Part shown: one piece after another, positions 357 to 17,573 of the stretch | Numbering within the stretch: the first letter of the stretch is position 1 | Layout: each line of letters starts with the position of its first letter | Assembly (NCBI GenBank): GCA_022750155.1 | Contig: JAKIWG010000025.1 | Coordinates: forward strand, 1-34,264 | DNA length: 34,264 bases | Direction of reading: 5' to 3' | Origin: Thermoplasmata archaeon | Lineage (GTDB): Archaea > Thermoplasmatota > Thermoplasmata > Lutacidiplasmatales > UBA184 | Notes under the pieces: model-generated | What the model was told of the DNA's origin: nothing | Database searches by the model: none | What the model saw: the letters and a program-made list of their open reading frames with translations, nothing else | Position numbers and translations under genes: made by a program

Positions 357-2150
357 ATGACCACACCCGCTACGCAAAGCACGACGCACGTCGGGGGCTC
401 GCTCCCCGCCGGCTCGCGCGCCCCCAAGGAGCTCACGGACCTCGCGGTGCTCATCGGGGGCCAAGGGGGCGACGGAACGCTCACGGTCTCCGACCTGCTC
501 GCGCGATACTTCCGAAAGCGCGGTCTGTACGTCTACAGCTCACGCAACGTCCTCTCCCGGATCCGAGGGGGACACGCCGATTCGTCGATCCGCGCGTCCC
601 GCGAGCCGATCGCGGCGATGAAGGCCCGCGTGGACCTGCTCGTGGCGTTCGACAACGAGGCCGTGCAGATCGGGCAACCGGAGCTCGAACCGGACGCCCT
701 CATCCTGTTCGACTCCTCGGTGTTCCAATCCGACCTGCCGAACGCCCTCGGCTTCCCGTTCGCGACCCTCGTGGGGAGCCAGCTCGGCCAACCGATCTAC
801 AAGAACACGGCCGCATACGGCGCGATCTCTGCCCTGATGGGGTTCGACCCCGAGACGACCCGACACGTCATCGAGGAGCGGTTCAAGCGCCGCAGCCCGG
901 AGGCGCTGGAGAAGAACCTCAAGGCGCTCGAGATCGGGCGAAAGGCGGCGATGGAACTTCCCCAGGGGCGCGACCGATGGCACGTCGCGGACGGGGACGC
1001 GCACAACCAGATCCTGACCATCGGCAACCAGGCAGTGGCCCTGGGGTTCGTCGTCGCCGGGGGCCGATTCTTCGCCGGCTATCCGATCACTCCGGCGACC
1101 GAGATCATGGAGTACCTCATGCGATACCTTCCGCCGTTCCATGGGGTCGTCCGGCAGGCCGAGGACGAGCTCGCCGCCATCAACATGATCATCGGTGCCT
1201 CGTACGCCGGGGCGCGCGTGATGACCTCCACGAGCGGGCCGGGTCTCTCGCTCATGACCGAGGGGATCGGTCATGCGGGGACGGCGGAGCTGCCGGTGGT
1301 CGTCGCGGACTGCCAGCGGGTCGGGCCCTCTACGGGCGAGCCGACGCGCCACGAGCAGTCGGACCTCGCCCACCTGGCCCACCTGGGGCATGGGGAGTTC
1401 CCCCGGTTCATCATCGCGCCCGGGACCCTGGAAGACTGCTTCTATCTCACCATCGACGCCGTGAACCTCGCCGACAAGTGGCGGCTTCCCGTGATCCTCC
1501 TCCTCGACCAGGCGCTCTGCCAGAACTCCTCGACGTCCCCACCCCTCGACCTATCCAGGGCCCGGATCGACCACGGGAAGCGACTGACCGAGGCCGAGCT
1601 GGCGGCGCTGACCACCTACAAGTACTATCAATTCACCGAGGACGGGATCTCCCCCCAGGTCCCCCCCGGCACCGTCGGGGCGTTCGCCCAGGTCACGGGC
1701 AACGAGCACGACGAGAACGGGCACGTCTCGGTCAACCCGGTCAACCGCGTCAAGATGATGAAAAAGCGGATGGAGAAGATGGTGCACGCACGGGACGACC
1801 TGCCGCTCCCTCAGTACTACGGGGAGGCTTCGGCCAAGATCGGGTTCATCGGCTACGGCTCCACGTGGGGCCCGATCCGTGAAGCCCAGGAACGCCTCGC
1901 CCTCGCGGGGGTCCAAACGCGCTTCCTGCAGGCCCGCACCCTGTTCCCCGTCCAGACCCACACCCTCGACCCGTTCCTCCAGGGGGTCGACGTCGCCTAC
2001 GTCGTCGAGCACAACTACAACGGCCAATTCGCCCAGCTGATCCGCGAATCGCTCCCGCAGCACCACGCGAAGCTGCGCTCGGTGCTCAAGTACGACGGCC
2101 TCTCCTTCCGCGCGCCCGACCTGGTCGCCCGGGTCCAGGAGGGTCCATGA
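357..2150 (+). CDS. korA: 2-oxoacid:ferredoxin oxidoreductase, fused gamma-alpha subunit
   Basis: The 597-residue protein is the large subunit of a two-subunit 2-oxoacid:ferredoxin oxidoreductase, which oxidatively decarboxylates a 2-oxoacid (2-oxoglutarate or a broad range) to acyl-CoA and reduces ferredoxin. Residues about 23-200 are the gamma domain (GGQGGDGT nucleotide motif, RGGHADSSIR). Residues about 215-430 are the alpha pyrimidine domain with YPITPATE, the variant of the YPITPSTE motif typical of KorA-type enzymes. The C-terminal 100 residues are the transketolase-C-like domain. The stop overlaps the korB start by 4 nt (ATGA), so the two are translationally coupled. Substrate range cannot be fixed from sequence. 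With citrate synthase elsewhere in the window, a role in an oxidative TCA cycle is plausible. Confidence 0.95.
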   Translation: MTTPATQSTTHVGGSLPAGSRAPKELTDLAVLIGGQGGDGTLTVSDLLARYFRKRGLYVYSSRNVLSRIRGGHADSSIRASREPIAAMKARVDLLVAFDNEAVQIGQPELEPDALILFDSSVFQSDLPNALGFPFATLVGSQLGQPIYKNTAAYGAISALMGFDPETTRHVIEERFKRRSPEALEKNLKALEIGRKAAMELPQGRDRWHVADGDAHNQILTIGNQAVALGFVVAGGRFFAGYPITPATEIMEYLMRYLPPFHGVVRQAEDELAAINMIIGASYAGARVMTSTSGPGLSLMTEGIGHAGTAELPVVVADCQRVGPSTGEPTRHEQSDLAHLAHLGHGEFPRFIIAPGTLEDCFYLTIDAVNLADKWRLPVILLLDQALCQNSSTSPPLDLSRARIDHGKRLTEAELAALTTYKYYQFTEDGISPQVPPGTVGAFAQVTGNEHDENGHVSVNPVNRVKMMKKRMEKMVHARDDLPLPQYYGEASAKIGFIGYGSTWGPIREAQERLALAGVQTRFLQARTLFPVQTHTLDPFLQGVDVAYVVEHNYNGQFAQLIRESLPQHHAKLRSVLKYDGLSFRAPDLVARVQEGP

Positions 2151-3025
2151 GCCCGGTCTCGGTCAAGCCCGTCCCTTCCACCTGGTGTCCGGGGTGCGGG
2201 GATTTCGGCGTCCTCGCCGCCGTGAAGAAGGCGCTCGTCGAGGTCGGGGTCCCGACGCACGAGGCGGTCCTCGTCGGGGGGATCGGCTGCTCCGGCGGCA
2301 TCCACAACTTCCTCGAGATCAACGGGATCCATGCGCTCCACGGACGGCTATTGGCGCAGGCCGTGGGGGTCAAGCTGGCGAACCCTAAGCTGACCGTCGT
2401 CGCGGCCGGGGGGGACGGCGACGGCTACGCCATCGGAATGGGCCACTTCATCCACGCGTTCAAGAAGAACGCGTCGATCCTCTACATCGTGATGATGAAC
2501 GAGACCTACGGCCTCACCAAGGGCCAGGCCGCCCCCACGGCCCCGATCGGCTACGAGGGAAACGTCGAACCCCCCTTCGACGCCATCCTGACCGCCCTCA
2601 GCCTCCCCGCCCACAATTTCATCGCCCGCACGTTCTCCGGGGACCCGAAGACCATGACCGCGGTGCTCGTCGAGGCGCTCCGGTTCAACCGGGCGAACCA
2701 GGGCTACGCCTTCGTCGAGGACCTCTCGCCCTGCGTGACCTACAACGACACGTTCAAGGATTGGCGCGAGCGGGTCCTCGACGTCTCCAAGCTCCCGGGA
2801 TACGACCCCACCGACCGCAAGGTGATGTTCCAACTGTGCCTCGACACGATGGAGAAGGGGAAGATCCCGATCGGGGTCATGCATCGCCCCGCGCCGAAGA
2901 CCACCGAGGGCGCCGACTCCCTCGAGCTCAAGCTGCTGCCGGACCGGATCGGTCCCGCGGTCACCGGCATCGAGCTCGCCGACAACCTGGCCGCCTACGA
3001 CAAACTGATCAAGAGCGTCACCTAG
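2147..3025 (+). CDS. korB: 2-oxoacid:ferredoxin oxidoreductase, beta subunit
   Basis: This 292-residue thiamine-diphosphate subunit partners KorA. Cysteines at 14 and 17 (WCPGCGDF) and 48 (GIGCSGG), plus one near 197 (SPCVTYN), match the four ligands of the single [4Fe-4S] cluster in Sulfolobus-type two-subunit enzymes. The GGDGDGYAIGMGH segment, with the downstream Asn and YGLTKGQ, is the ThDP/Mg site. No ferredoxin-like delta domain is present, as is usual for the two-subunit type. The start is fixed by the ATGA overlap with korA. Confidence 0.95.
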   Translation: MSPVSVKPVPSTWCPGCGDFGVLAAVKKALVEVGVPTHEAVLVGGIGCSGGIHNFLEINGIHALHGRLLAQAVGVKLANPKLTVVAAGGDGDGYAIGMGHFIHAFKKNASILYIVMMNETYGLTKGQAAPTAPIGYEGNVEPPFDAILTALSLPAHNFIARTFSGDPKTMTAVLVEALRFNRANQGYAFVEDLSPCVTYNDTFKDWRERVLDVSKLPGYDPTDRKVMFQLCLDTMEKGKIPIGVMHRPAPKTTEGADSLELKLLPDRIGPAVTGIELADNLAAYDKLIKSVT

Positions 3026-3051
3026 GCCGAGAGGCCGCTCCGGGGACTCCC

Positions 3052-4029
3052 GTGAACCGTTCCGCGTCGGCCACCCTGCTCTTGTCGCTCCTTGTCGCCG
3101 GGAGCCTGCTGATCTCGGCACCCGCCGCCGTCGCTCCGCGCGCCCACCCCGCAGATTCCACGGCGGACGGCGCCACGCTGTCGATCACCACCTCCGGCCT
3201 TCTCGCGCTCAACCTCACGTTCAGCGACCCGAACGGGTCGACGCTCCGCTACGCGATGGACGGCAACTTCACTCCGCTCGTGGAGGGCCTGCCGATCAAC
3301 GCGAGCACCCAATCCCGGGTGCTCGGCCAGATCGCCACGCTCGAGTCCACACCGCTCGTCGGGGGGTTCTTCGGGAACCGCGACGGGAGCGTCTCCCCCG
3401 GTGAGGTGACCCTGTTCGAGGGGCTGCTCCATCAGCTGACGGCGGGAACCGGCGGCGTCCTTCCGACCAACACCCTCTCGGTCGCGTCGCTCGCCAACGT
3501 GACGCTCGACGGCGCGCGAGCGTCTGTGAGCGCGTTCCAGTCGGTATCGTTCTCGGGGGCCGAGGGCCCGGACTCCTCGGAGCTTCCCCTCGGCATCTCG
3601 CTCCAGTTCTCCTATCAGTTCGGGGTCTCGGGGACCCAGCACACCCTCGCGCTGTCGATCGGGGGCGCGGGACTCCCCTCGGCGCTCGTCATCCCCACCG
3701 CGCTCGCCTCCGTCTCGTTCTCCACCCCGGGAGGGACGACGATCACCTCGGTCGACGGGCTCTCGGGCGTCTCGACCTCCACCGACCCCCTCGGGTGGGG
3801 GAGCTCGGACGCCTCGGGCACCTACACCCTCTCCGCCAACTCGGTCATCGCGTTCCACTACCAGACGTCGTTCCCGACCGGCGATGTACTGATCGGCGGG
3901 GCCGTCACGGGCCTGGTGGCCGCCGCTGCGTCGCTCCTCCTGCTCCGCCGCCGGCGACGCCGGAAGGCCGCCTCGGCTTCCGGCCCGAAGGCCGAGGAAG
4001 GCGCGGTGGGACCATCTGGATCGGCGTAG
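3052..4029 (+). CDS. Secreted, C-terminally membrane-anchored protein of unknown function
   Basis: The 325-residue protein starts at GTG 3052, 26 nt after korB. It has a signal peptide (residues 1 to about 27: Arg, long Leu/Val/Ala core, then APAAVAPRA). The Ser/Thr/Gly-rich extracellular part is probably beta-strand and carries NLT and NAS sequons. A single transmembrane helix follows at about 279-298 (VLIGGAVTGLVAAAASLLLL), with a run of six Arg as stop-transfer. I recognise no enzymatic motif. Its position after korB may be co-transcription without functional linkage. The 3' end overlaps the conserved start of TiaS by 16 nt in another frame. Confidence 0.8.
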   Translation: MNRSASATLLLSLLVAGSLLISAPAAVAPRAHPADSTADGATLSITTSGLLALNLTFSDPNGSTLRYAMDGNFTPLVEGLPINASTQSRVLGQIATLESTPLVGGFFGNRDGSVSPGEVTLFEGLLHQLTAGTGGVLPTNTLSVASLANVTLDGARASVSAFQSVSFSGAEGPDSSELPLGISLQFSYQFGVSGTQHTLALSIGGAGLPSALVIPTALASVSFSTPGGTTITSVDGLSGVSTSTDPLGWGSSDASGTYTLSANSVIAFHYQTSFPTGDVLIGGAVTGLVAAAASLLLLRRRRRRKAASASGPKAEEGAVGPSGSA

Positions 4030-5324
4030 ACGACACCGACAGCGCCCTCGGCGGCTGCACTACGTTCACCCTCACCGAGCTCGTGCGACGCGCCCTTCGG
4101 GAGGGTGCCGACGTCATCGGCTGGCCCCGGCTCGTCCGGCTCAACCCGAACGTGCCGTGGAAGACGAGGGGGAACGCGGCCCTCGGGGTGCGCCTGGGAA
4201 GGGGTTCCGGGCGTCGCTGGAAGATCGGAGAGATGCCCGAAGGCGCCGTGGAGGCGTTCGAGCGGGGGTCGGAGCTCGAGCCGCGCGCGAGCGACGAGCT
4301 CGAAGCCGCGCTATGGGAAACGATCCGCGCCACTTCGCGCACGGGAGAACCCGGGACCGACCCGGCGATGGTCACGAGTCCCCGGCGTCTGCCCGCGACC
4401 CTCTACTGGAAGGCGGTCCGTCAGGTCGTGCCGGTCCCTACGGCCCGCGAAGCGATCGCTTCCGTGGGCGGGCGGGTCCGCACCCTCGACTCGGGACGGG
4501 GCGTCGTGGGGGCCGCCGCCGTGCTCGCTTGGCCCGCGCGGAAGGCCACCTGGGAACTGATCGCGTACCGAGCTCCGGAGCGGGAGGCGTCGCGGCGGAG
4601 AGTGGACGCCGATTCGGTCCGCCGCACCAGTGCCCGGTTCCCCGAGCTGTTCCTCTGCCACGATCCTCGGACCCGCCGGGTGCTCGTCGCGCCCCACACG
4701 CCCTGCCCGATCCTGTTCGGCCTCCGGGCCCGTCGCCCGGAGCGGCTCGAACGAGCCCGGGTGGGGATCCGGTCCGAGCCCGTCGAACGATGGATGATCT
4801 TCGCGACGAACCAGGGGTCCGGGGACCACCTGGGCGACCTGAGCGGCCGTGAGCTCCAGTCATACGGATCGGGAAGGCTCACCGGGGTAGTCCGGTCGAC
4901 GCCCGAGACCGGTCCCGGCGGCCACGTCCGGTTCGACCTCGAGGAACCCGACGGGTTCCGAACCGCCTGTCTCGTCTTCGAGCCGACGAAGACCCTCCCA
5001 AAGATCGCCCGCCATCTGGCCGAAGGCGACTCCGTTCGGGTCTGGGGAGGCCGGGGCGTCGACCCGGTGTTCCGGGTCGAGGGGATCGAGGTCCGTTCTC
5101 TCTCACCCCGGTGGTCCTCCCCCACGCCCCCCCGGTGCCCGGATTGCCGGCGACCGGCCGCCTCGGTAGGGGCGGGTCGAGGGTACCGGTGTCCGGAGTG
5201 CCGCCGGCGGTTCCCACCCGAGAGCGCCGGCGTGCGCCGGCTCCGGCCGACCCTCGCCCCCGGGGTCTACCACCCCACCCCTTCGGCGCGTCGCCACCTC
5301 CACCCGCTCGCCCCCGAGGCGTGA
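4014..5324 (+). CDS. tiaS: tRNA(Ile2) 2-agmatinylcytidine synthetase TiaS
   Basis: TiaS attaches agmatine to C34 of the CAU-anticodon tRNA-Ile using ATP, so that it reads AUA. The protein opens with WIGVDDTDS and GGCTT, the kinase-like TCKD motif. The ferredoxin-like domain follows, then an OB fold (about residues 290-365, beginning GRLTGVVRSTPE) and a C-terminal zinc ribbon (CPDC ... CPEC), the canonical TiaS order. Length is about 436 residues, normal for the family. No ATG, GTG or TTG lies in frame between 3843 and the conserved start. ATC at 4014 sits where family members usually have Met. A single missing G in the G-run at 4008-4010 would instead allow GTG at 4006, so the start shown is provisional. 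Confidence 0.9.
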   Translation: MWIGVDDTDSALGGCTTFTLTELVRRALREGADVIGWPRLVRLNPNVPWKTRGNAALGVRLGRGSGRRWKIGEMPEGAVEAFERGSELEPRASDELEAALWETIRATSRTGEPGTDPAMVTSPRRLPATLYWKAVRQVVPVPTAREAIASVGGRVRTLDSGRGVVGAAAVLAWPARKATWELIAYRAPEREASRRRVDADSVRRTSARFPELFLCHDPRTRRVLVAPHTPCPILFGLRARRPERLERARVGIRSEPVERWMIFATNQGSGDHLGDLSGRELQSYGSGRLTGVVRSTPETGPGGHVRFDLEEPDGFRTACLVFEPTKTLPKIARHLAEGDSVRVWGGRGVDPVFRVEGIEVRSLSPRWSSPTPPRCPDCRRPAASVGAGRGYRCPECRRRFPPESAGVRRLRPTLAPGVYHPTPSARRHLHPLAPEA

Positions 5325-15859: not shown

Positions 15860-16189
15860 TCAGTGTGCCTGCCGAAGCCACCCCGCCAGCGGCCGCAGGC
15901 TTTGGTACAATTCGGTTCCCGACGCGGTCAGAGCGTAGACCCTCACAGGGCCTCGTGGGCCTGCGGCGCTGTCTCGCCGGACGAGTCGTGCGCGTTCCAA
16001 CGAGCGCAGTGTCGAGGTCAGCGTCGCAGGGCTGACCCCGGAGAGACATTTCTGGATCGGTCCAAACCGCACGGCGCCGTACTTGCCCAGGAGCGAAATC
16101 ACGCAGACGGCCCACTTCTTTCCGACGACGTCGATCAACCCGATGGGCGGGCACGGGCATTCCAACTCGCCCTCGCAGCACTGCGACAC
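15860..16189 (-). CDS. Cys-rich HxlR-family winged-helix regulator
   Basis: The 109-residue protein matches the HxlR winged-helix family: the N-terminal CP motif, GLIDVVGKKWAVCVISLL, then the recognition region LSGVSPATLTSTLRSLERARLV and a wing. The N-terminus is unusually Cys-rich (C4, C5, C11, C13), with further Cys near 29 and 47, suggesting thiol or metalloid sensing. It starts at GTG 16189, about 25 nt from the CTTAAG box, so probably leaderless, and is divergent from the Cys-peptide/arsC/aquaporin genes. I infer that it is the metal(loid) sensor of that operon in place of a classical ArsR. Confidence 0.85.
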   Translation of the reverse strand: MSQCCEGELECPCPPIGLIDVVGKKWAVCVISLLGKYGAVRFGPIQKCLSGVSPATLTSTLRSLERARLVRRDSAAGPRGPVRVYALTASGTELYQSLRPLAGWLRQAH

Positions 16190-16210: not shown

Positions 16211-16216
16211 CTTAAG
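16211..16216. promoter_or_regulatory. Symmetric CTTAAG TATA box for two divergent transcripts
   Basis: CTTAAG reads the same on both strands. It lies about 25 nt from the regulator's GTG on the minus strand. On the plus strand it is about 36 nt before the peptide ATG, which has its own Shine-Dalgarno (GAGGT, 16241-16245). I see no second AT-rich element in the 60-bp spacer, so one box may serve both directions. Confidence 0.5.
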
Positions 16217-16218
16217 AG

Positions 16219-16237
16219 CACTTCAGCTATTGAAGTG
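16219..16237. promoter_or_regulatory. Inverted-repeat operator in the divergent promoter
   Basis: CACTTCA-GCTAT-TGAAGTG has perfect 7-bp arms and a 5-bp spacer. It lies directly between the CTTAAG box and the predicted start site of the peptide operon, where a bound winged-helix dimer would block initiation. The HxlR-type regulator is the obvious candidate binder. Confidence 0.6.
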
Positions 16238-16249
16238 ACTGAGGTCCCC

Positions 16250-16372
16250 ATGTCCGAACTCTGTTGCCCGACGCCGTGCTGCCGCATCGCGTGTTGCCGT
16301 ATGCCGTGCTGTGAAACGCCGTGCTGTGACCCGAAGGTCTGCCGACCGGACTGCTGTACGTCGTGTTGTTGA
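16250..16372 (+). CDS. 40-residue metallothionein-like peptide with CC-xxx pentad repeats
   Basis: The short ORF encodes 40 residues, 15 of them Cys. After MSEL the chain is built from pentads beginning Cys-Cys (for example CCPTP, CCRIA, CCETP); one pentad has VC, and the chain ends in two CC pairs. I know of no named family with this pattern; metallothioneins are the nearest functional analogy. A Shine-Dalgarno GAGGT lies 4 nt upstream. The TGA overlaps the arsC ATG by one base (TGATG), so the two are translationally coupled. The DNA is an imperfect 15-nt tandem repeat, suggesting growth by duplication. Thiophilic metal(loid) binding, perhaps arsenite, is inferred from composition and context. 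Confidence 0.75.
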   Translation: MSELCCPTPCCRIACCRMPCCETPCCDPKVCRPDCCTSCC

Positions 16373-16821
16373 TGCCCGCACGGCAGGTCCTCTTCGTCTG
16401 CGTGGAGAACGCCGCCCGCTCGCTCATGGCCGAGAGCATCTTCAACGCGGACCCACCCCCGGGGTGGTCCGCGGATTCTGCCGGAACTCGACCTGCTCTC
16501 GCGCCCAACCCTCGAGCAGCGCCGATGCTCGCCGAGATCGGATTGAAACTGCCTCCGCACCCGCCCCGCGAACTCACCGCGACGATGATCGATTCCGCCT
16601 CGATCCGGGTGACGATGGGTTGCCTGGACGACGCCAGTTGCCCGGCCCGTCTGAAATCGCGGGAGCTTCGAGACTGGGCTCTCCCCGATCCAGGGCGGCT
16701 CGATGACGAGGGGTTTCGAGGAGTTCGGGATGAGATCCGGCGGCGCGTGAGTCTCCTCCACCAGGAAATCGTGGCGATGTCGAGAGGGGAGGACCCCACG
16801 GAGCACGGGGCCGTTCGGTGA
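16372..16821 (+). CDS. arsC: Arsenate reductase of the low-molecular-weight phosphatase (thioredoxin-type ArsC) family
   Basis: The 149-residue protein has the P-loop C10-x5-R16-S (VLFVCVENAARSLMAE). It also has a downstream Cys pair, C84 and C90 (GCLDDASCP), and the general acid D106 (DWALPDP). These positions nearly match B. subtilis ArsC (C10, C82, C89), which reduces arsenate to arsenite by a Cys relay completed by thioredoxin. The extra P-loop Cys of many ArsC proteins is Ala here. ATG 16372 is chosen because of the one-base overlap with the peptide stop. The stop overlaps the aquaporin GTG by 4 nt. A pure tyrosine phosphatase role is unlikely because of the Cys pair. Confidence 0.87.
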   Translation: MPARQVLFVCVENAARSLMAESIFNADPPPGWSADSAGTRPALAPNPRAAPMLAEIGLKLPPHPPRELTATMIDSASIRVTMGCLDDASCPARLKSRELRDWALPDPGRLDDEGFRGVRDEIRRRVSLLHQEIVAMSRGEDPTEHGAVR

Positions 16822-17573
16822 GTCCGAGCCTCCTGTCTCGTCTCGGAGCGGAGCTCGCGGGAACGGCTCTCCTCGTCGGCATCGGCACGGGGGCGATCGT
16901 CGGGGCCGTAGGGACCGGCGGCATCCCGCAATGGCAGATGGCCATCGCGTGGTTCCTCGCGGTGCTCCTCCCGGTCATTTTGTTCATCCGGATCTCGGGG
17001 GCCCACCTGAATCCTGCGGTCACGCTGGCCCTTGCCCTCAGTCGGAGAATGCCTCGGTCGGAGGCTCCGGCGTACGTGGCTGCCCAGATCGCCGGAGCAT
17101 TCCTCGGAAGCACGGCGGTGCTCCTGTCCCTCGGAGACCACGCGCACCTGGGGGCCACCACGCCCTCGATCGAGAACCTTCCGGCGGTGTTCGGGGCGGA
17201 ACTACTGTTCACCGGGGCCTTGGTCGGGTCCGTGTTCGTGCTCGCCGATGCCCGACCGGAGCGGGGTCGTTGGTGCGTGCTGCTTCCCCCCGCCGTGGTG
17301 GGGATTTCGACCTTCTTCATCGGACCGATCACTGGGAGCTCGCTCAACCCAGCCCGTAGCATCGCACCCGCCGTCCTCTCCGGGACCTTCACCGACCTCT
17401 GGGTGTACCTCGTGGCCGTGCCGCTCGCCGCCATCCTCGTTGCCATGCTATGGGGGAGGGGGAATGACGGTGCACCCCCCGCCGCACCAAGAACGAACTC
17501 CGGCGACGAGGGATCCGGCGGGCCAATGGGGGGACCGAAACCTGACGGTCTCTCCGCCCGTCGCCTCCCGTAG
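16818..17573 (+). CDS. Aquaporin/aquaglyceroporin (MIP family), possible arsenite channel
   Basis: The 251-residue protein has six transmembrane helices and both pore motifs: NPA at 65-67 (AHLNPAVT) and NPA at 177-179 followed by the selectivity-filter R180. The hydrophilic Pro/Gly-rich tail after about 214 is longer than usual. Directly after arsC this resembles the AqpS-ArsC arrangement of rhizobia, where arsenite made by ArsC leaves the cell down its gradient through the channel. No ArsB or Acr3 pump is in the window. Arsenite transport here is inferred from context. Confidence 0.9.
   Translation: MSPSLLSRLGAELAGTALLVGIGTGAIVGAVGTGGIPQWQMAIAWFLAVLLPVILFIRISGAHLNPAVTLALALSRRMPRSEAPAYVAAQIAGAFLGSTAVLLSLGDHAHLGATTPSIENLPAVFGAELLFTGALVGSVFVLADARPERGRWCVLLPPAVVGISTFFIGPITGSSLNPARSIAPAVLSGTFTDLWVYLVAVPLAAILVAMLWGRGNDGAPPAAPRTNSGDEGSGGPMGGPKPDGLSARRLP

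Follow-up and report, generated by a model that had tools for sequence, protein, structure and literature searches.

A cysteine-rich small-peptide gene in the slot before arsC in Lutacidiplasmatales archaea: a candidate arsenite sink

The window analysed here is a stretch of 34,264 nucleotides that constitutes contig 27 of a Thermoplasmata archaeon assembly (2.13 Mb in 51 contigs). Near its middle lies an ars operon, that is, arsC together with an exit for arsenite (in this lineage a MIP channel or ACR3) and an hxlR regulator gene. Between the regulator and arsC sits a very short gene for a cysteine-rich peptide. The features of this region are as follows, with coordinates of the window.

15860 to 16189, minus strand: divergent gene for an HxlR-family regulator with a CCEGELECPCPP N-terminus (Pfam HxlR, 52.5 bits against a cut-off of 20.8).
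16211 to 16216, no strand assigned: TATA-like CTTAAG, a putative promoter element that perhaps serves both directions.
16219 to 16237, no strand assigned: palindromic operator CACTTCA-n5-TGAAGTG.
16241 to 16245, plus strand: Shine-Dalgarno-like GAGGT.
16250 to 16372, plus strand: cysteine-rich peptide gene including its stop codon (40 aa, 15 Cys).
16262 to 16327, plus strand: five CC pairs spaced five residues apart (residues 5-26), delimited by translation, repeat search and comparison of 29 loci.
16322 to 16369, plus strand: C-terminal core CCDPKVCRPDCCTSCC, of the form CDPxxCPPGCCDxC and common to relatives, defined by alignment, codon columns and a regular expression.
16372 to 16821, plus strand: arsC, an arsenate reductase of the low-molecular-weight phosphatase type with Cys10, Cys84 and Cys90 (Pfam LMWPc, 64.7 bits against 23.2).
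16818 to 17573, plus strand: MIP channel of the aquaporin/aquaglyceroporin family (Pfam MIP, 124.9 bits against 25).

Translation of 16250-16372 gave MSELCCPTPCCRIACCRMPCCETPCCDPKVCRPDCCTSCC followed by the stop codon, which bears out the 40-residue, 15-cysteine reading frame proposed in an earlier note on this DNA. Cysteine pairs occur at residues 5-6, 10-11, 15-16, 20-21 and 25-26, so that the pentads described in that note exist as five units with a period of five; past the fifth pair the cysteines stand at C31, CC35-36 and CC39-40, and the period breaks down in the last third of the peptide. The imperfect 15-nt repeat that the note had placed beneath the pentads is weak but real in the DNA (TRF 16274-16311, period 15, 2.5 copies, 73% matches, score 48), and a second repeat search returned 20-nt copies with 75-85% identity. 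The cysteines are encoded by seven TGT and eight TGC codons, and because both codons occur the ORF is not a plain run of TGC. The Shine-Dalgarno-like site has similar counterparts in relatives. At the other end, the peptide's TGA (16370-16372) shares one base with the ATG of arsC at 16372, just as the note had read it, and the start of the MIP gene overlaps the end of arsC in turn. The inverted-repeat operator likewise proved genuine and is kept in relatives. It sits between the TATA-like element and the peptide start codon; relatives carry CTTATG, TTATAA or similar at the TATA-like place.

Arsenate reductase models match the window's ArsC, all of them below cut-off, and the name arsC is therefore taken from the Pfam domain, the cysteine triad and the arsenic partners. 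The triad is that of the disulfide-cascade type of arsenate reductase.

In order to place the peptide among its relatives, short ORFs before arsC were sought as the earlier note had suggested, and 29 loci with a cysteine-rich ORF of this kind, 22-42 aa long, were found in Lutacidiplasmatales, the window included. The genus sample comprised 78 species genomes, 65 of them with this arsC. Eighty arsC places were found in it, of which 70 were taken and the ten weakest left aside; together with 80 loci from database records and five overlapping stretches these gave 95 distinct arsC loci. All six frames of these loci (378.5 kb) were filtered for small ORFs of 20-60 aa with at least six Cys and at least 18% Cys. 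The filter was chosen after examples were known, so the counts are descriptive, and the absence of passing ORFs elsewhere in the loci is an internal control rather than a blind test. Among 3060 candidate small ORFs, 26 passed, and every one of them occupies the slot upstream of arsC and has the orientation of arsC, 25 directly before arsC and one before an arsM-arsC pair; the tie between peptide and arsC that the earlier note had drawn from one locus thus extends across the set. Three further members come from outside the 95 loci: G027:C4 (L239), which is one of the ten weakest places and was inspected later, where the peptide precedes an arsC seemingly split by a frameshift, G458 (L211), and G073 (L113), which has no arsC. 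Two of the 29 loci (L144, L157) belong to one MAG. The peptide also occurs in two other genera of the family (G365 and G458; G463, G464, G466 and G467). A chance open frame in a repeat rich in cysteine codons would be in keeping with the weak 15-nt repeat of the window; against the slot specificity of 26 out of 26, and with start, stop and core common to several species and genera, we find such an origin scarcely credible.

What the 29 members have in common is an abundance of cysteine (5-15 residues, 20-38% of the peptide). Eighteen of them have no Cys run longer than three, and 17 of these match the core expression C-x(2-5)-C-x(0-2)-P-G/D-C/Y-C-x-x-C. The remaining 11 are poly-Cys peptides with runs of 4-9 Cys; the longest run in the window's copy is two. 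The P-G/D-C/Y-C anchor is present in 19 of the 29, one of them poly-Cys, and outside it C(-7) is kept in 17/19, D(-6) in 12/19, C(-2) in 17/19, C(+6) in 17/18 and C(+7) in 11/14. In these 19 members, core residues are kept while synonymous codons change. The five-unit pentad series is found in the window alone among the 29 loci. A shorter series, of three CC units, is present in a single other member of the core type (L163), and the nearest relative by both ArsC and HxlR (G005, L119) has the core and lacks the pentads. The long pentad series is thus local to the window and the cysteine-rich peptide in the slot is general: the pentad cannot stand as the family design that the earlier note had made of it, and what is conserved between relatives is the ORF and its core, with the pentad spacing mostly not shared. 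In one slot (L174, in G053) the frame MPENRGPGPCGPEGGPPGGCDPTP holds only two Cys in the right place and looks like a decayed peptide.

A profile of 12 core-type sequences (alignment A2) found matches in 11 of the 78 genus genomes at E 0.1; nine of these belong to the 20 genomes with a slot peptide, and another, G073, holds the copy without arsC. The profile misses poly-Cys members and others. Its matches in G063 have the look of chance in the one that was inspected. Across 389 genomes of the phylum three matched at E 0.01; at one of these matches (L200, in G078) neither the operator nor a recognised arsenic gene was found. Searching by HxlR instead recovered 47 of 103 family genomes at E 1e-15 and 53 of 400 class genomes at E 1e-20, eight of the latter outside the family. 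In the loci of these eight, some cut by contig ends, neither arsC, arsM nor MIP was detected at E 1e-3, and short CC-rich frames were absent; one of them (L249) contains, at some distance from hxlR, two frames in which Cys is loosely scattered. Outside the family, the phylum-wide profile search, poor in recall, and the class-wide HxlR search thus gave no confirmed peptide, and the poor recall of the A2 profile makes the known taxonomic range a lower bound. A plasmid search with one member returned no match and is a weak test owing to the low-complexity filter of BLAST.

The peptide goes with a particular control region. With at most one mismatch the operator occurs at 32 sites in 28 of the 78 genus genomes, compared with five sites in five genomes for the same sequence read backwards, and 31 of the 32 adjoin hxlR or an arsC/arsM operon. 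One match, in G031:C17, falls inside a HAD-like gene, as judged by eye, and looks like chance. At 44 of the 95 arsC loci there is an operator or hxlR, and 25 of the 26 peptides are among these; at the remaining one (L147) the operator carries one mismatch and escaped the scanning expression, so that all 26 peptides of the set have the operator. The other 50 loci, with neither operator nor hxlR, contain no peptide passing the filter (at one of these, L052, the upstream sequence is lacking). At L020, L147 and L163 peptide and operator are present and hxlR is not beside them. The divergent, Cys-bearing HxlR protein is likely to be the regulator; cysteines occur in the N-termini of its relatives as well.

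Two observations concern HxlR loci of other kinds. At L111 (G043:C88, 1127-1483) hxlR and the operator are present with no recognised arsenic gene in 3.5 kb. The peptide-arsC operon of G043 is on another contig, and no hxlR was found near it. At L251 (G490:C110, about 2063-4372) a distant HxlR relative is divergent to a frame resembling a metal P-type ATPase, as judged by eye, and this branch of HxlR may serve other metals.

The peptide is dispensable and the slot changeable: 19 of the 44 loci with hxlR or operator have no peptide, which means that it is not required. Three of the 19 have arsM in the slot; others have short frames that are poor in Cys or devoid of it (L123, L174, L166), and in L181 (G261:C13) a seemingly SelW/Rdx-like frame follows hxlR and operator, where the cysteine peptide would otherwise be. 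At L186 (G054) what comes after the operator is a C-terminal remnant of ArsM (36% identity over 50 aa, E 3e-6, single comparison), and it looks as though the greater part of that gene had disappeared from between operator and arsC. On the ArsC tree the distribution of the peptide needs at least 14 changes and is clustered, the tree being poorly resolved; on the HxlR tree, where few forks are well supported, it needs at least eight and is again clustered.

The genes around the slot make the arsenic setting stronger than the earlier note had claimed, with arsM or ACR3 in neighbouring slots elsewhere. After arsC, 24 of the 26 peptide loci have MIP and two (G037, G014) have ACR3, and across the genus 16 of the 78 genomes have an ACR3 match above its cut-off, which in every case follows arsC at a distance of no more than about 600 bp. 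ArsM, which converts As(III) by methylation, is encoded directly upstream of arsC in 32 of the 95 loci, four behind the HxlR operator and 28 without operator or hxlR; the ArsM of L118 scores 296.9 bits against a curated cut-off of 263. In Fisher tests that ignore relatedness, arsM occurs in 3/20 peptide genomes versus 27/58 others (p 0.016) and, among the 65 genomes with arsC, in 3/20 with the peptide versus 27/45 without (p 0.001); G073 has arsM, and counting it as a peptide genome gives 4/21. Some ArsM N-termini have CC pairs in a Ser-rich stretch, in a peptide-like style: that of L118 (arsM at 1724-2542) reads CCSSSS...SSCCG, and those of L114, L115 and L117 are similar. ArsB-family permeases exceed the Pfam cut-off in 11 of 78 genomes, the window's included, and are not beside arsC; the operon therefore need not be the sole exit for arsenite.

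Since the peptide usually precedes arsC with an overlap and ArsC has a cysteine triad, its Cys pairs could be imagined to reduce the ArsC disulfide after arsenate reduction, replacing thioredoxin. The ArsC of L014, with arsM in the slot, has the same triad, however, the cysteines of the peptide number anywhere between 5 and 15 and form no fixed CxxC, and G073 keeps a copy of the peptide without arsC. A role as redox partner or thiol donor is very improbable on these grounds.

The proximity to arsC admits another explanation, the main rival, in which the peptide is idle and its ORF is a cis-acting poly-Cys leader: passage of the ribosome would sense the supply of cysteine or thiol and set the translation of the coupled arsC. 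There is precedent in mycobacteria (Canestrari et al. 2020, as cited in PMC9031893 and PMC13236596), where, as cited, a short Cys-rich ORF with contiguous Cys codons likewise lies directly before an operon gene and regulates what is downstream of it. The start of the arsC frame overlaps the peptide stop in 21 of the 27 loci in which arsC is the next gene, and the 11 members with runs of 4-9 contiguous Cys codons resemble known poly-Cys regulatory leaders. The position of the Cys tract varies, however, and no such run occurs in the window. The mycobacterial ORFs are, by the same citing papers, leaderless attenuators, whereas the archaeal starts mostly follow a Shine-Dalgarno-like site (GAGG or GGAG at most 16 nt upstream in 23 of 29) and so appear unlike plain leaderless starts. 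Many archaeal members also have a conserved core, which keeps D, P and G besides C, residues superfluous for a sensor of Cys codons. An overall excess of RNA folding is not seen (mean z 0.28 over the 29 short-ORF regions, -0.02 in controls), although single loci reach -3.4 (L155) and -1.7 (L045).

A leader that acts in cis and shares a transcript with its target would suit the copies that overlap arsC; it does not suit two copies that stand apart from arsC. In G033 (L115) a promoter-operator of its own serves the peptide, and about 100-130 nt past the peptide stop there is another full one, before arsM. These form, at 3240-3640 of L115, a tandem pair of complete modules. In G073 (L113) hxlR, operator and a core-type peptide are present with no arsC after them. 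Because of the promoter-operators of G033, the copy in G073 and the conserved D, P and G of the core, a working peptide is favoured over the leader, which we regard as unlikely but worth keeping in mind; the two can be compatible, and both could hold.

The copy in G073 also means that the ligand could be another soft metal. Under HxlR control the peptide might buffer Cu(I), Cd, Hg or Zn, or damp the HxlR sensor itself. Among 41 arsC-linked HxlR proteins, a Cys at most nine residues before the CPCPP motif goes with the peptide (20/23 peptide loci versus 3/18 others, Fisher p 7.5e-6). The association rests on few independent events, however: three independent pairs on well-supported branches, which is not significant, and with only these three, shared descent may explain it. 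The arsenic setting, with every one of the 26 peptide operons ending in MIP or ACR3, also speaks against another metal, and we hold either role to be improbable.

Comparison with known families offered likenesses and no assignment. No Pfam or NCBIfam model exceeded its cut-off in the 20 of 29 members that were scanned. The earlier note had known of no named family with a CC-pentad design. One does exist, the high-sulfur keratins (PF13885, Keratin_B2_2), with CC-pentad repeats like those of the window's copy; the note was right insofar as the window peptide scores 18.6 bits, below the cut-off of 27, and a match at E 1 or better was obtained for only two of the 20 members scanned. High-sulfur keratin and keratin-associated proteins are animal hair proteins, and the likeness is probably due to chance or convergence. 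The peptides resemble metallothioneins in their very small size, their cysteine content, the context of metal(loid) stress and the scarcity of aromatic or His residues (at most two, none in the window's copy). They differ in having mostly CC pairs, CCxxC and poly-Cys and in being located inside an ars operon, and none of the 20 members matched a metallothionein model (Pfam, NCBIfam) at E 1. The peptide looks as if it were metallothionein-like in its working, yet it matches no known family. Among solved structures the sole match was a knottin-like peptide at E 0.38, taken as chance.

Within ars operons one comparison is with ArsD, an operon product with vicinal Cys pairs in a folded domain of about 120 aa. 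The peptide, with 40 aa in the window, is far shorter, and no ArsD model (Pfam, NCBIfam) matched among the 20 members. The S. meliloti ars operon has ArsR as regulator, whereas the archaeal loci have an HxlR-type regulator and an extra cysteine peptide. Excerpts of PMC6205960 describe ArsD as an As(III)-binding hand-over protein, the S. meliloti pairing of ArsC with a MIP channel (the aquaglyceroporin AqpS), and the binding of As(III) by vicinal thiols.

Taken together, we hypothesize that the ORF specifies a short thiol peptide that stays inside the cell, captures As(III) and is co-produced with ArsC, much as the earlier note had suggested that it may buffer or hand over arsenite, a reading to which we assign a probability of roughly 0.6. 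In this proposal, which is drawn from gene order and sequence conservation, the Cys-rich N-terminus of HxlR would sense As(III) or another thiol stress and release the operator, the peptide and ArsC would be translated in one pass, ArsC would reduce As(V) to As(III), and the vicinal Cys pairs of the peptide would keep As(III) bound pending its exit by way of MIP or ACR3. The peptide would then be a sink for As(III) and possibly also a partner in its hand-over to the channel or permease; the variation in length, in Cys spacing and even in the core would be unusual for a tuned chaperone. The fact that ArsM fills the place before arsC in many sibling loci suggests that a related job is done there in another way.

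Source and sink might also be coupled, such that efficient initiation on arsC is reserved for ribosomes coming straight from the end of the cysteine-rich ORF. This extension is quite unlikely and we offer it as speculation. If it were true, the enzyme that generates As(III) would be made only when there is cysteine to spare, the synthesis of each ArsC would follow that of one or more new sink peptides for As(III), and sink and supply check would be united in one short gene and one translation event.

In the literature searched, going by titles and the beginnings of abstracts, no such peptide was described, and the main text of a paper on Lutacidiplasmatales genomes (PMC9287336) does not contain arsen, heavy metal, metallothionein, ArsC or HxlR. 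HxlR and arsenic do co-occur in that literature; no paper was found in it on HxlR together with arsenite.

Operons for arsenic detoxification are usually described as ones that reduce, export or methylate. According to a 2025 abstract (PMC12093948), no gene for intracellular sequestration had been found within an ars operon. If our reading is true, a conserved peptide in the place of arsM would be such a sequestration gene, in archaea, and one short enough for annotation to miss. HxlR, with its clear and nearly single operator per genome, would be a candidate arsenic sensor.
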